Of a stretch of 64,000 nt of DNA, positions 4,581 through 10,654 are shown piece after piece. The first letter of the stretch is position 1. The number at the start of each line of letters is the position of its first letter. The notes below the pieces were generated by a model. The model was not told the origin of the DNA and did not search any database. It worked only from the letters and a program-made list of their open reading frames with translations. This DNA comes from Endomicrobium sp. (GTDB lineage: Bacteria > Elusimicrobiota > Endomicrobiia > Endomicrobiales > Endomicrobiaceae), in the NCBI GenBank assembly GCA_031261715.1, contig JAISJB010000001.1:62001-126000 (forward strand), read 5' to 3'. The position numbers were made by a program, and so were the translations under genes.

Positions 4581-5456
4581 ATGAAAACAATAAGACTTGG
4601 ATTTCCAAAGGGCAGTTTACAAGATGCTACTATTTCATTATTTCAACATGCAGGAATTAAAATAACTATACCATCTTCAAGATCATATTATCCAATTTCA
4701 GATGATAAAGAAATTGAAATGATGTTAATACGTTCACAAGAAATTGCTAGATATGTTCAAGATGGATTTTTCGATATTGGATTAACTGGGTATGATTGGA
4801 TTTGTGAAACTAATGCTAATGTTCACGAAATATGTGAATTAAATTATGCAAAGTCTGGTTTTAAGTTTGTTAAATGGGTGCTAGCAGTGCCAGAAAACTC
4901 TGTTATTAAATCAATAGTAGATTTGAATGGTGGACGTGTTGCAACTGAGCTTGTGAATTATACAACAAAATATTTTATCAACAAGAATATTAAGGCTAAT
5001 ATTGAGTTTTCTTGGGGAGCAACAGAAGCTAAAGCAGGTAAATTTGTAGATGCAATAGTTGAGCTTACTGAAACTGGCTCGTCGTTACAAGCAAATCATT
5101 TACGTATTATTGATGAAATATTAGTATCAAGTACAAGATTAATTGCTAATAAGACATCTTTACTTGATAATTGGAAAAAAGAAAAAATTAATAATATAGC
5201 CATGTTATTACAGGGAGCTCTTCTAGCTGAAAGTATGGTTGGCCTTAAAATGAATGTTCATTGTAAGTATCTTACAGATGTTGTACAAATGTTACCATCA
5301 CTTAAAAAACCTACCATAGCAAAACTACATGGTGATAATTGGTATGCTATAGAAGTGATATTAGAAGAAAAATTTGTCAAAGAATTAATTCCGATATTGA
5401 AACGACATGGTGCTACAGATATAATTGAATATTCATTAAATAAAATAATATACTAA
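4581..5456 (+). CDS. hisG: ATP phosphoribosyltransferase, long form
   Basis: HisG catalyses the first step of histidine synthesis (ATP plus PRPP). Seen: RLGFPKGSLQDAT at the N-terminus, the DIGLTGYDWI segment, and ATEAKAGKFVDAIVELTETGSSL, the PRPP-binding region. The C-terminal part, from about residue 215, is the regulatory ACT-like domain of long-form HisG, which normally binds histidine and works without HisZ. The 291 residues agree with that form. A good ribosome site (TTAGGAG) lies 10-15 bases before the ATG. No other his gene is in this window, so the pathway must be scattered or incomplete. Confidence 0.95.
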   Translation: MKTIRLGFPKGSLQDATISLFQHAGIKITIPSSRSYYPISDDKEIEMMLIRSQEIARYVQDGFFDIGLTGYDWICETNANVHEICELNYAKSGFKFVKWVLAVPENSVIKSIVDLNGGRVATELVNYTTKYFINKNIKANIEFSWGATEAKAGKFVDAIVELTETGSSLQANHLRIIDEILVSSTRLIANKTSLLDNWKKEKINNIAMLLQGALLAESMVGLKMNVHCKYLTDVVQMLPSLKKPTIAKLHGDNWYAIEVILEEKFVKELIPILKRHGATDIIEYSLNKIIY

Positions 5457-5468
5457 TTTTATTACATT

Positions 5469-6935
5469 ATGGAACAAAAAATTATTAGAGTTCGTTTTGC
5501 TCCTTCTCCGACTGGCAATTTACATATAGGTGGAGTTAGAACAGCATTATTTAATTGGTTGTTTGCTAAGAAGCAAAATGGCGACTTTATTTTACGTATT
5601 GAAGATACAGATAGATGTCGTTCAACGCAAGTATATGCAGATAATATTTTAGATACTTTAAAATGGTTAAAATTAACCTGGAATCATGGTCCATTTTATC
5701 AAATACAGCGTACAAAGTTATACAGTCAATATGTAAATGAATTACTTAAACGTAATCATGCTTATAAATGTTATTGTACTGTAGATGACATTGCTAAAGC
5801 TAAATACACATCTAAGCAAAACAAAATCCCATTTAAATATAATTGTAAATGTAAATATTTGACATTAGCTCAAATAAACAAAAAAACTAATAATCCAGTA
5901 ATAAGATTTATTGTTCCTAAAACAGGGACAACAATCTTTAATGATTTAATAAAAGGAACTATAACATTTGATAATTCTTTATTAAGTGATTTCATTATAA
6001 TGAGATCTGACAATCTGCCAACATATAATTTAGCTTGTGTAATAGATGATTACACCATGAATATAACACATGTCATAAGAGGTGACGATCATATTTCTAA
6101 TACGCCTAGGCAAATACTTATTTACAATGCATTAAGATGGAGTATTCCTCACTTCGCACATATATCTATGATATTAAATATTGATAGACAACGTTTGTCT
6201 AAAAGATATGATTCAATATCTGTTTTAAAATATAGAAAAGAAGGTTATTTACAGGAGGCTTTAGTGAATTATCTTGCATTACTTGGATGGAGTACTATAG
6301 ATAGTCAACAAATTTTTACAGTACAAGAGTTACAACAAAAGTTTACTATTGAAAAATGTAGCTCTAATCCAGCTATTTTTGATCATAATAAGTTACTATG
6401 GTTAAATAAAGAGAAAATACGCTCAAAGTCTGTTGATGAAATATATGATTTGTTTGTTGATTGGGCTAATAATGATATGAAGCTAAATAATTTGATTGCT
6501 AATTGGAATATTAAAACTTTAAAAAAAATTATAAAATTAGAACATAATAAATTAACAACCTTAAATGATATTATAATACTTGGTAATATGTTTTTTAATT
6601 ATAATTTAGTGTACAATAAAAAAATTAATGAAATACTTTTTGATACAAATACGAAAATAGTTTTGAATGAAAGTGTTAAAAGACTTAGTTCACAAAAAGA
6701 TTTTTCTGCTACTGCTTTAGAGTTATATGCAAGAGATTTAGCTAGAGAATATCAACTTACTACACCGAAGGTTTTTCACCCAATACGAATAGCTATATCT
6801 GGAAACATGAGAGGTCCTAGTTTGTTTAGTATGATGGAAATCCTTGGACAATATGAAATTATAAAGAGAATGTCTCTCACATTAGATAAAATTAATAAAA
6901 TACAAAAAGGAGAAAAAGCAAAATGTCAAGAGTAA
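5469..6935 (+). CDS. gltX: Glutamyl-tRNA synthetase
   Basis: This class I synthetase charges tRNA-Glu. In lineages without GlnRS it also mischarges tRNA-Gln for the GatCAB route. Motifs: HIGH-type PSPTGNLHIGG at 12-22, LRIEDTDR at 42-49, the zinc site as C101-x-C103 and C126-x-C128, and the KMSKS equivalent RLSKR at 242-246. The anticodon-binding helical domain follows and ends with the conserved MRGPSLF region. The 488 residues are normal. It lies 12 bases after hisG and overlaps the next gene by 13 bases. Whether it discriminates against tRNA-Gln cannot be read by eye. Confidence 0.97.
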   Translation: MEQKIIRVRFAPSPTGNLHIGGVRTALFNWLFAKKQNGDFILRIEDTDRCRSTQVYADNILDTLKWLKLTWNHGPFYQIQRTKLYSQYVNELLKRNHAYKCYCTVDDIAKAKYTSKQNKIPFKYNCKCKYLTLAQINKKTNNPVIRFIVPKTGTTIFNDLIKGTITFDNSLLSDFIIMRSDNLPTYNLACVIDDYTMNITHVIRGDDHISNTPRQILIYNALRWSIPHFAHISMILNIDRQRLSKRYDSISVLKYRKEGYLQEALVNYLALLGWSTIDSQQIFTVQELQQKFTIEKCSSNPAIFDHNKLLWLNKEKIRSKSVDEIYDLFVDWANNDMKLNNLIANWNIKTLKKIIKLEHNKLTTLNDIIILGNMFFNYNLVYNKKINEILFDTNTKIVLNESVKRLSSQKDFSATALELYARDLAREYQLTTPKVFHPIRIAISGNMRGPSLFSMMEILGQYEIIKRMSLTLDKINKIQKGEKAKCQE

Positions 6936-8332
6936 AGAAACAAGTAGTATCATTGACACTATCTTTATTATTAAACATTCCACTATATGCTACTGTTCCA
7001 TCAGCCTTGCCGAATCATTATACTAATTCTACATTGCCTATATCTTCGAATAATTACACCAATTCCACGTTTCCTAACCTTACATGTCCTGCATGGCAAA
7101 AGGATTTGTTCGAAAATGATAATTTTACATGTCCTGCTACACATGATGATGTTAAAATTGAACCTATAATGTTTGCAATGTTTGAAAACAAACCTGATTT
7201 TGTTACTGATGAGCAATGGGCATTTATAAGTAACTCTCGTATGTCTAGAGGGCAACATAGAACTCAAGAAGAGATGCAATATCTATTTGGGCCTGGCCCT
7301 TACGATGACCTTTACATCCCTACAACTTATAAAAAAATTACAGATTTTGTAAAAACAAATCTGGTTCCTGTGGTGGTATTGATTGGAGCTTGCGTTTTTA
7401 CATATTATTTGTGGGCTTTGTGTTTATTTCCATTTTATCTTTCACATGTTAAGACAGACATGCGAAGAGCAATAAATGATGAAATGCAAGAACACCTTGA
7501 AGTAGAGCGTAAAACTAGACCATATGTTCATAAAGGCTTGCGAGTGGGGGAAACTATGAACATTCCTGCTATAGCAACAGAGGACCAAGAGGCTCAAGTA
7601 GTTGACTATGATCCACGTAATAAGTTTCATGTTAGATTGGTTAGTTTATCATTACAAATCGCTCAAAGATTGGCTGACGAGAGAAATGAGGCTGTCCTAA
7701 ATATTGTAACAAGAGACCTACATTATCCAGGCGATACATATATAACACCTGAACCAGTTGATCAGTTACCACCAGTTTTTGAATATTGGGAACGAGCATA
7801 TTCCCAATCCCAAGCACTAAAAAATTATGTGGAACATGTCAAAGAAAGAAATAAACTTAGTGATAAACCTTATCCTCTACCTGGTTGGCTAATATTTCTT
7901 GAAAATGAAGATGGGCAAATGAGGCTAGAATATTTTAATCCTACTGATGAGAATCATGTCAGACAGATTGACGCTTCGCTAAATAGATGTTATGATTTTA
8001 TGAGACACCATCCTTATAGGATTAATAAAAAAGTTCGTACTATAACAAATCCTGTTTTAAGACAAGTTTATTCCTCTGACATGCAACAACAAATAGTATC
8101 ATTTGATTATAATGCGCCAATAGCTATGTTACATGACGCTCCTAAATTTACAGATCCACAATTTAAACCTAGCTTGAAAGACTTAATAGAAAATGGTGTT
8201 TTTCAATATGATTTTAAAGCTAAAGAGCGTAGATTGTCTTCATTAACACGTTCACAAAAAGTTGACGTAACACCTGATTTTCTTAAGAAGTATAAATTTC
8301 CACCACCACCACCATCACACATAATAACCTAA
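6923..8332 (+). CDS. Unrecognised secreted/membrane-anchored protein (469 aa)
   Basis: I do not recognise this protein. Residues 1-23 look like a signal peptide (basic MSRVKK, a hydrophobic core, then LYA before T24). Residues 31-75 are Asn/Thr/Pro-rich and contain two copies of the motif YTNST-L/F-P and two of TCPA. Residues about 147-173 form one strong membrane segment, followed by basic KTDMRR, so about 120 residues would face outward and about 295 inward. The tail ends in a run of six prolines and SHIIT. Translation signals are good: AGGAG at 6908-6912, 10 bases before the ATG inside the gltX end. Local GC is much higher than in flanking genes (27 of 60 bases at 7261-7320 and 7561-7620), though it falls to 15 of 60 at 8161-8220. 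It is clearly a real, maintained gene. A host-interface or envelope role is only inference. Confidence 0.8.
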   Translation: MSRVKKQVVSLTLSLLLNIPLYATVPSALPNHYTNSTLPISSNNYTNSTFPNLTCPAWQKDLFENDNFTCPATHDDVKIEPIMFAMFENKPDFVTDEQWAFISNSRMSRGQHRTQEEMQYLFGPGPYDDLYIPTTYKKITDFVKTNLVPVVVLIGACVFTYYLWALCLFPFYLSHVKTDMRRAINDEMQEHLEVERKTRPYVHKGLRVGETMNIPAIATEDQEAQVVDYDPRNKFHVRLVSLSLQIAQRLADERNEAVLNIVTRDLHYPGDTYITPEPVDQLPPVFEYWERAYSQSQALKNYVEHVKERNKLSDKPYPLPGWLIFLENEDGQMRLEYFNPTDENHVRQIDASLNRCYDFMRHHPYRINKKVRTITNPVLRQVYSSDMQQQIVSFDYNAPIAMLHDAPKFTDPQFKPSLKDLIENGVFQYDFKAKERRLSSLTRSQKVDVTPDFLKKYKFPPPPPSHIIT

Positions 8333-8337
8333 AAAAT

Positions 8338-8368
8338 AAAGAAAGCCATGTTACACATGGCTTTCTTT
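8338..8368. terminator. Bidirectional intrinsic terminator
   Basis: A perfect 13-bp stem (8338-8350 with 8356-8368) has a 5-base loop TTACA and A/T-rich flanks that give U-rich tails in both directions. It sits between the convergent 3' ends of the unrecognised membrane protein gene and asd, so it can end both transcripts. It is the clearest intrinsic terminator in the window. Confidence 0.92.
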
Positions 8369-8376
8369 TATATTAT

Positions 8377-9399
8377 TTAAATAATTTTTATTAATTCTTC
8401 TGCTATCTGCACAGCATTTAAGGCCGCGCCCTTTAATAAATTGTCAGAAACTATCCATAGTGTTAATGCGTTGTGTTTTTTTAATGATATATCTTGTCTA
8501 ATTCTTCCAACATATGTAATTTGTTGCCCTTCTGCTAAGATAGGCATAGGGTATTTGTATATATTAGGATCATCCATTATACAAATTCCATTTGCCTTAC
8601 ACAATAAATTTCTTGCTACTAATGGGGTAATTGTTTTTTCTGTTTCAATCCATACACTTTCTGAATGGGCACGTATAATAGGAACTCTTACACATGTAGC
8701 ACTTACTTCAATATCATATGAATTCATAATTTTTTTCGTTTCATTCGTCATTTTCATTTCTTCTTTTGTATAATTATTATCCATAAAAATATCTATTTGT
8801 GGTATTACATTAAAAGCTATTTGATATTTAAATGTATTTGTATTTACTGCTAAAGTATGTTTTCCTTTACCATATTCTTGTATTTGTTTAGTAAGTTCAT
8901 CAATACCTTTTTGGCCAGCCCCTGACACAGATTGATATGTTGATACAATAACTCTTTTAACTTTTGCATAGTCATGTATTGGTTTGAGAACAATAACCAT
9001 TTGTATAGTTGAGCAGTTTGGATTAGCAATAAGTTTTTTATCTCTTTTTAAAACATGCGAATTAACTTCTGGTACCACTAAAGGAACATCTGTATCCATT
9101 CTCCATGCATTTGAATTATCTATAACGTAACATCCATTTAAAATAAAATATGGGGCAAATTCTTTGGAAACATTCGAACCAGCACTAAATAATGCAATAT
9201 CAATCTCTTTGCCACTATTTTTATTTAACAATTCAACTTGTATTTCTTTGCCTCTATATATTAATTTTTTCCCAACAGATTTATGTGATGCGAAAAATCT
9301 TATACTTTGAATTGGAAATTCTCTTTTTTCAAGCATATTAATCATTTCACGACCAACTGCGCCTGTTGCTCCTACAACTGCTAGTTTAAATTTTCTCAT
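8377..9399 (-). CDS. asd: Aspartate-semialdehyde dehydrogenase
   Basis: Asd reduces aspartyl phosphate to aspartate semialdehyde, the branch point for DAP/lysine, methionine/threonine and, here, carboxynorspermidine-type polyamine synthesis. The NADP-binding VGATGAVGREM is at residues 9-19. The catalytic Cys lies in NPNCSTIQM and the active-site His in RVPIIRAHSESVWIE. The 340 residues are normal. It is the last gene of the minus-strand run that begins at glyQ, 25 bases after the SpoIID-like gene. Its products feed DapA (26962-27849) and the CANSDH/NspC pair, both encoded in another cluster of this window. Confidence 0.96.
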   Translation of the reverse strand: MRKFKLAVVGATGAVGREMINMLEKREFPIQSIRFFASHKSVGKKLIYRGKEIQVELLNKNSGKEIDIALFSAGSNVSKEFAPYFILNGCYVIDNSNAWRMDTDVPLVVPEVNSHVLKRDKKLIANPNCSTIQMVIVLKPIHDYAKVKRVIVSTYQSVSGAGQKGIDELTKQIQEYGKGKHTLAVNTNTFKYQIAFNVIPQIDIFMDNNYTKEEMKMTNETKKIMNSYDIEVSATCVRVPIIRAHSESVWIETEKTITPLVARNLLCKANGICIMDDPNIYKYPMPILAEGQQITYVGRIRQDISLKKHNALTLWIVSDNLLKGAALNAVQIAEELIKII

Positions 9400-9424
9400 G
9401 ATTATTTATTTCCCCTTAAATAAA

Positions 9425-10654
9425 TTAATTTTGATATTGTATTTTATCAATCTTAGTCTTAGGATAAAAATATGATAGAATTTGTTTATAAGTTTTACCT
9501 TTTTCTGCCATTACTTTAGTTCCCCATTGGCATAATCCAACTCTATGGCCCCATCCTTTACCATTAAAACAAAATTTACCTCTACATTTTTTAATAGATT
9601 TAAACATGTTACTTTTGATATTCCATGTACTGATTGCAAGCCTAAATTTATATGCGTGTATATTTAATTTACCTTGAGAGTGTATAATTTCTAATTGTTT
9701 GACAGTTCCATGCCTAGTTTTCCCTTTAATATTAATTTGTCTTATTTTTCCAATGTTACAAAAATTATTATTTATAAGTTGATTTCTTATGAATTTTTCT
9801 TCTAACTTCCCAGTCCAGCTAAAATATGGAGATTTTGAACAATAATGACATTTGACACCTTTTAAATATCTTGGTACATTTGTAGAATCCCATATATATT
9901 TTGGATTTTCAGTATGTCCTCCACAACTAGCATGAAAAACTGTTTGTGCTAACAAGCCTTTATAAGTTAAGACTTGACATTCAGTTTCTACAATGGCTTG
10001 ATTACATACTTCTGCTTCATTAGATAAACCTCCATACACTTGACAATGCGTTGTTGCACAAATATCAAAGCCTTGATTCATATGTCTATTATAATTCTTA
10101 ATAACATATGTTCTACTAATAATAGCTTGTACTTTTAATGCTTCAAACGACCAATGCTTGTAAATTTCTTGTGGTAGTACTCCTTTTAAATAATCTTCTA
10201 AGCATATAATATTGATTATATCGAAACAGTTAGAATTAAGATATGATTGTTGTAACAGTAAATGTCCTCTATATGCCTTATTAAAAACAAAAATACAACC
10301 ATCACTTGATGGTTGTATTACAACTGGTAAAGTCAAAATATATCCATCTATATCTATATTATTTTTATCAATATAAGAAACATTAATATATTGATTGCTA
10401 CTTTGAATTTTATTATTAAACTTATCAAATATATATATAACGTTGGAAATATTATGTATTGTACATGTAGATAACTTATGTGCTATACACACCTTAAGAG
10501 TGTTTTTTACTGTAATGATTGAATGCGCTATTAAATTAAATTTTAATAATATTATAAACACACATACACATTTTTTTAATACAAATATTTTCGTTAATCC
10601 TTTTATCTGTATTTTGAAAGTATTGTCATTAAGTTTTTTTATGATTGTCGTCAT
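9425..10654 (-). CDS. SpoIID/LytB-domain protein (probable peptidoglycan lytic enzyme)
   Basis: The C-terminal two thirds match the SpoIID/LytB domain: LEDYLKGVLPQEI, SFEALKVQAIISRTYV, the VFHASCGGHTENP segment, and GKGWGHRVGLCQWG near the end. SpoIID of Bacillus is a lytic transglycosylase for sporulation. Homologues in non-sporulating lineages are generally wall-remodelling proteins. An N-terminal hydrophobic segment (about residues 27-44) suggests export. The listed start overlaps tyrS by 26 bases, and a later start is possible. Cys residues are numerous, including a HYCSK motif. No other sporulation gene is in the window, so wall maintenance is more likely than sporulation. Confidence 0.85.
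   Translation of the reverse strand: MTTIIKKLNDNTFKIQIKGLTKIFVLKKCVCVFIILLKFNLIAHSIITVKNTLKVCIAHKLSTCTIHNISNVIYIFDKFNNKIQSSNQYINVSYIDKNNIDIDGYILTLPVVIQPSSDGCIFVFNKAYRGHLLLQQSYLNSNCFDIINIICLEDYLKGVLPQEIYKHWSFEALKVQAIISRTYVIKNYNRHMNQGFDICATTHCQVYGGLSNEAEVCNQAIVETECQVLTYKGLLAQTVFHASCGGHTENPKYIWDSTNVPRYLKGVKCHYCSKSPYFSWTGKLEEKFIRNQLINNNFCNIGKIRQINIKGKTRHGTVKQLEIIHSQGKLNIHAYKFRLAISTWNIKSNMFKSIKKCRGKFCFNGKGWGHRVGLCQWGTKVMAEKGKTYKQILSYFYPKTKIDKIQYQN

Follow-up and report, generated by a model that had tools for sequence, protein, structure and literature searches.

The window analyzed here is a 64,000-nucleotide stretch of DNA from an Endomicrobium sp. assembly and forms part of contig C2 of genome G000 (484 kb, 27% GC, 5 contigs, 79% complete). 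Between gltX and the convergent gene asd, it contains a gene for a membrane protein, referred to below as the orphan (Table 1). The open reading frame is real. The probability that 469 codons stay open by chance at 27% GC is ~1e-18, and the sister genome G034 has preserved the frame. As the initial annotation had it, the gene stands behind gltX with a good ribosome-binding site (AAGGAG, ~10 nt before the ATG and still inside gltX), and the G034 orthologue has AGGAGG at the corresponding place before its start. The C terminus of gltX is longer in G000 and G034 than in most relatives. The orphan had also been credited with the best terminator of the window; in a scan of positions 5400 to 9450, a terminator was indeed present behind the gene, but its symmetry gives it a score on either strand, and it therefore serves the convergent asd on the right as well. 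Rfam gave no match over positions 6500 to 8900.

Table 1. Features of the orphan locus in the window and of its orthologue in G034
Feature	Position	Strand	Remarks
gltX, left neighbor	5469..6935	+	13-nt overlap of its 3' end with the orphan start
Ribosome-binding site AAAAGGAG	6906..6913	+	Lies in the terminal part of gltX
Orphan membrane protein, 469 aa	6923..8332	+	Open frame with ATG start; orthologue in G034
Predicted signal peptide, residues 1-23 (MSRVKKQVVSLTLSLLLNIPLYA)	6923..6991	+	PLYA end and basic start kept in G034; model helix 3-22; by eye and hydropathy
Presumed outer (periplasmic) part, residues 24-146	6992..7360	+	N-terminal stretch rich in NxS/T
Predicted transmembrane helix, residues ~147-172	7361..7438	+	Hydropathy; model helix 135-198, pLDDT 71-84
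C-terminal part, residues 173-469, presumed cytoplasmic	7439..8329	+	Ends in FPPPPPSHIIT; VxxDPRxxxHV piece conserved in G034
Cumulative GC skew maximum (replication terminus)	7691 (C2:69,691)		Skew of the 325,727-bp contig; inside the orphan gene
Bidirectional intrinsic terminator	8338..8368		14 pairs; common to orphan and asd
asd, convergent right neighbor	8377..9399	-	Also borders the gap in G008, G028, and G031
Orthologue in G034	C48:6857-7525		Behind gltX; ends at contig end after residue 223

The orphan is compositionally unusual. Earlier hand counts of local GC were exact (27 of 60 at both 7261-7320 and 7561-7620 and 9 of 60 at 6541-6600), and the whole gene has 34.7% GC versus 26.9% for gltX, which makes it the highest of the 59 genes in the window and the third of 392 ORFs genome-wide. 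The encoded protein has the lowest combined content of Ile, Asn, and Lys and the highest content of Pro in the proteome. When amino acid content was taken into account, synonymous GC3 still ranked first among 329 genes (z = 5.1; the next gene had 3.3); the 4-fold sites alone were near normal (0.148 versus 0.127; standard deviation, 0.033). The high GC is due to amino acid content plus a real synonymous bias. It had been suggested that the GC might mark strong constraint, as in ftsZ; this explanation fails because few proteins of the genome evolve as fast as the orphan. In G034, the gene does not stand out in codon usage (z = 1.4), so codon bias does not date a shared transfer.

Database searches recovered no family for the orphan in Pfam, NCBIfam, PHROGs, or PADLOC (best E value, 0.088, far short of the cutoff), a profile search against PDB chains and a tblastn search against phages gave no match, and peptide-pattern scans of genome contigs and viral contigs found no homologues, in agreement with the earlier statement that no domain could be recognized. 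The gene had further been called lineage specific. Using tblastn and a two-row profile against 42 congeneric genomes (~0.2 to 1.4 Mb) and 199 genomes of the phylum, we found a single orthologue, in G034 and likewise behind gltX; 2 of the 42 congeneric genomes thus carry the gene at the same locus, and none was found elsewhere in the phylum sample. These comparisons strongly support a lineage-restricted distribution, and the orphan is a real, previously undescribed family with an informative location. What did not survive was the word “system,” since no partner gene is conserved with the orphan beyond gltX and asd, and these two border the gap even where a relative does not carry the orphan. 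A wider family including other signal peptide-plus-transmembrane proteins, such as those on contig C33 of G034, was considered and rejected: alignment z values were at most 3.2, barely above those of shuffles, versus 14 to 19 for the true orthologue. Contig C33 itself (5,166 bp) has ends that overlap by 119 bp and closes to a 5,047-bp unit. Its larger ORFs all lie on one strand, nearly all with a signal peptide and several with a transmembrane helix, no replication gene was recognized, and no Pfam or PHROGs match exceeded the cutoff; possible explanations are a plasmid, a tandem array, and a stray contig. Two further orphan membrane proteins (G000:C4:2-340 and G034:C42 [L116:10997-11638]) form another pair, which has in common the transmembrane motif TPxALLxPV..Y.DLLNI and aligns with a score of 65, compared with shuffled sequences that scored 30 on average and 56 at most.

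The gene order etfB, etfA, M23 peptidase gene, DUF1015 gene, hisG, gltX, orphan is common to G000 and G034, and the two genomes grouped together in the gltX tree (support, 99/88), both on long branches. The orphan was already present in their common ancestor. Both copies have the gltX overlap, the ribosome-binding site, the PLYA end of the signal peptide, the transmembrane helix, and a DPR..HV segment after it. They differ in that identity is only 28 to 32%, the outer part is poorly conserved and ~40 residues shorter in G034, and the sequence of the G034 copy breaks off where its contig ends; consequently, the C-terminal half of the orphan is without any relative, and the adjacent asd is not visible there. 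The identity of 28 to 32% compares with a median of 66% and falls in the bottom 1.8% of 339 orthologue pairs; the orphan evolves much faster than nearly all other proteins. At 30 of the 67 identical residues, the two genes differ by a silent change. The rapid change could reflect relaxed constraint instead of diversification, the divergence being too high for dN/dS.

The predicted layout (signal peptide, ectodomain, single transmembrane helix) is common to the two copies. Signal peptide and transmembrane helix were judged by eye, by hydropathy, and from AlphaFold helices. The export signals (MSRVKK...LLLNIPLYA/TV in G000 and MSKIK...YMPLYA/VG in G034) combine a basic n-region, a hydrophobic core, and a small residue before the cut, and these features, along with the one transmembrane helix, suggest that the orphan is a Sec-exported single-pass membrane protein. 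The single-sequence AlphaFold model was confident for two helices only, residues 3 to 22 (the signal peptide) and 135 to 198 (which holds the transmembrane helix); hydropathy and these helices favor the signal peptide and single membrane helix of the initial annotation. No confident fold was obtained for the C-terminal part, whether the whole protein or that part separately was modeled. Lys and Arg residues around the transmembrane helix number 3 before and 3 after it in G000 and 2 before and 0 after it in G034, a distribution that does not clearly favor a cytoplasmic C terminus. In the outer part, a short internal duplication was seen (7072-7089/7117-7134). The C-terminal tail reads FPPPPPS and is therefore a run of five prolines instead of the six previously counted. 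We considered FPPPP as an EVH1-binding motif and set it aside; it is the sole such match, and the sole Pro5 run, in the proteome, but no other protein there is as rich in Pro, and the tail probably lies in the cytoplasm. A eukaryotic (host) origin, considered on account of the clustered NxS/T motifs, was also rejected, the signal being weak (5 versus a shuffle mean of 1.7; P = 0.014).

The setting of the gene in the chromosome proved informative. The cumulative GC skew reaches its maximum inside the orphan gene, and gene orientation turns from plus to minus at the same point; the gene coincides exactly with the replication terminus. This position and the former dif site had been missed by the earlier interpretation, which was otherwise partly supported. 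In the noncoding gltX-asd gap of G028 and G008, and after gltX in G025 and G018, there is a 28-mer, ATGTC(T/C)GATAATATATATTATGTTAAGT, that has the form of a dif site and differs from Escherichia coli dif (sequence from PMC3025954) at 2 of its last 18 positions. Over its full length it has 7 to 8 mismatches of 28, and chance stretches in an AT-rich genome reach 8, so the match is not unique. We regard it as dif because the gap that follows gltX holds a near-identical copy in four genomes and because this place is the skew switch, where dif is generally located (PMC3025954). In G031, the gltX-asd gap holds DUF1844 together with a dif-like site that has diverged, and DUF1844 stands behind gltX in many larger genomes; from these two arrangements, the ancestral order was likely gltX-DUF1844-dif-asd. 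The orphan thus fills the space in front of asd that in relatives is taken by DUF1844, a dif-like site, or both. No dif-like site was found within 3 mismatches in the window or within 6 mismatches anywhere in G000, the best matches in G034 had 5 to 6 mismatches and poor arms, and DUF1844 was found neither genome-wide in G000 nor in G034. DUF1844 was rejected as an ancestor of the orphan: the protein of relatives has the same chromosomal place behind gltX but is ~100 aa long and without detectable similarity to the orphan, and it was found in neither G000 nor G034. In G014 (L016:2200-3040), a foreign-looking stretch interrupts the DUF1844/FMN-reductase-like region behind gltX, possibly through misassembly.

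The recombinases that act with dif were sought in the same genomes. No PF00589 match for XerC or XerD was found in G000 or G034, and tblastn with the Xer proteins of relatives agreed; PF00589 had 1 to 6 matches in each of the 7 other relatives searched, including the reduced genomes G028, G029, G031, and G008, and matches in 14 of 14 control genomes. Both assemblies are incomplete (79% for G000 and 63% for G034), so the absence of Xer is not proven; the chance that both genes are merely unassembled in both genomes is ~0.6% (0.21^2 x 0.37^2), a rough figure that assumes independence. The G000-G034 lineage appears to have lost dif and XerC/XerD. RecA (by its conserved motif) and FtsK are present in G000; a search for FtsK found none in G034, the less complete of the two genomes. 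With RecA, the genome can still form chromosome dimers. The dif/XerCD system is otherwise widely conserved. The way in which a symbiont that retains RecA and FtsK, as G000 does, resolves dimers is a testable question, as is whether an emptied dif gap serves as a landing site for new genes, and the apparent loss may outweigh the orphan protein in worth.

G000 encodes a UhpC-like sugar-phosphate transporter and an AroP-type amino acid permease, both under the NCBIfam curated cutoffs. Transporters of these two types have been described for Endomicrobiellum, elusimicrobial endosymbionts of termite-gut flagellates (PMC11257099), and by analogy the reduced genome G000 would be Endomicrobiellum-like and flagellate-symbiont-like. 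A search with PF03219 (ATP/ADP antiporter), considered as a genus marker, gave no match, with no match in any control either, and so carries no weight. Scanning the genome contigs for gltX brought up distant phyla only. Contigs C1 and C4 of G000 carry 13 genes in the same order at 64 to 92% protein identity, so that two related species were probably combined during assembly, unless the genome holds a diverged duplication. Contigs C10 and C39 of G034 encode Gly-rich surface proteins and a large protein with a sorting-like C terminus; these look as if they came from other bacteria and probably contaminate the MAG.

The reading that we favor, and to which we give an even chance, is that the orphan is a putative envelope or surface protein of one sublineage that was gained at the terminus gap and changes fast as a result of host contact. 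The gene would have been gained in the stem of G000 and G034, in the terminus gap, around the time of the dif/Xer loss; either order is compatible with the data, in that dif may have been lost first or the gene inserted first. The signal peptide would be cleaved, placing residues 24 to 146 outside the inner membrane, and the helix continuing from the transmembrane segment would carry a flexible C-terminal part. The likeliest function would be that of a putative surface or envelope protein contacting the host cell, in adhesion, shielding, or signaling. Such a gene might be kept as life in the host demands, in a gap left free since dif function is no longer used. What speaks against host contact is that, if a signal peptide plus a transmembrane helix is read in the ordinary way, the last two-thirds of the protein would be cytoplasmic and the bulk of it out of reach of the host. 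An orphan gene that persists through extreme genome reduction is a good candidate for a function required by the association with the host.

Several other histories of the gene have to be weighed. Filamentous-phage attachment proteins are also signal peptide-plus-transmembrane proteins, and the orphan, which resembles them in layout, is the strongest synonymous-codon outlier of its genome and fills the dif gap. It might on these grounds be a remnant or cargo of an element integrated at dif by the XerCD of the cell (an IMEX, e.g., a filamentous phage) whose other parts, together with the dif copies, have been lost. We consider this unlikely: there are no flanking dif copies, the neighbors are housekeeping genes only, without replication, Zot, or coat genes, the orphan has no PHROGs or phage match, and codon usage in the G034 copy is not exceptional. 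No more and no less likely, in our estimate, is a young or decaying ORF under relaxed selection, or with no selected function, that is tolerated in the terminus gap. The very low orthologue identity, the restricted distribution, and the want of a fold are what would be seen in such a case, but the signal-peptide end, transmembrane helix, frame, ribosome-binding site, and gltX overlap have all been kept, silent change is found at 30 of 67 identical residues, and 1.4 kb has been retained in a 0.5-Mb genome.

Somewhat less probable again is de novo origin from the noncoding terminus gap. The gap is noncoding in G028 and G008 and no homologue is found outside the G000-G034 pair, so that such an origin fits the distribution; it does not fit the composition, because a Pro-rich protein poor in Ile, Asn, and Lys is the opposite of a translated AT-rich spacer. 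Finally, the orphan could be a terminus protein, evolved or acquired after the XerCD/dif loss, that provides partial dimer resolution or anchors the terminus to the envelope, or works with FtsK. It is encoded exactly at the terminus and is present in just those genomes that yielded neither dif nor Xer, and G000 has kept RecA and FtsK. Against this, the protein has no DNA-binding or recombinase domain, nothing in its sequence supports such a role, its signal peptide points outwards, and the co-occurrence comes from one lineage; we regard a terminus function as very improbable, although if true it would be the most interesting outcome.

Among known systems, IMEX such as CTXphi use dif (PMC5357621), and the place that the orphan occupies, the dif gap, is the one taken by CTXphi and other filamentous phages that integrate there; the orphan locus differs from these in having no flanking dif and no phage gene and in belonging to a genome in which Xer was not found. 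The orphan is also like the taxonomically restricted secreted or membrane orphans of intracellular symbionts, with which it shares a signal peptide, rapid divergence, the lack of a domain, and confinement to one sublineage. It is unlike them in being one large single-copy gene that lies at the replication terminus and shows no link to a secretion system.
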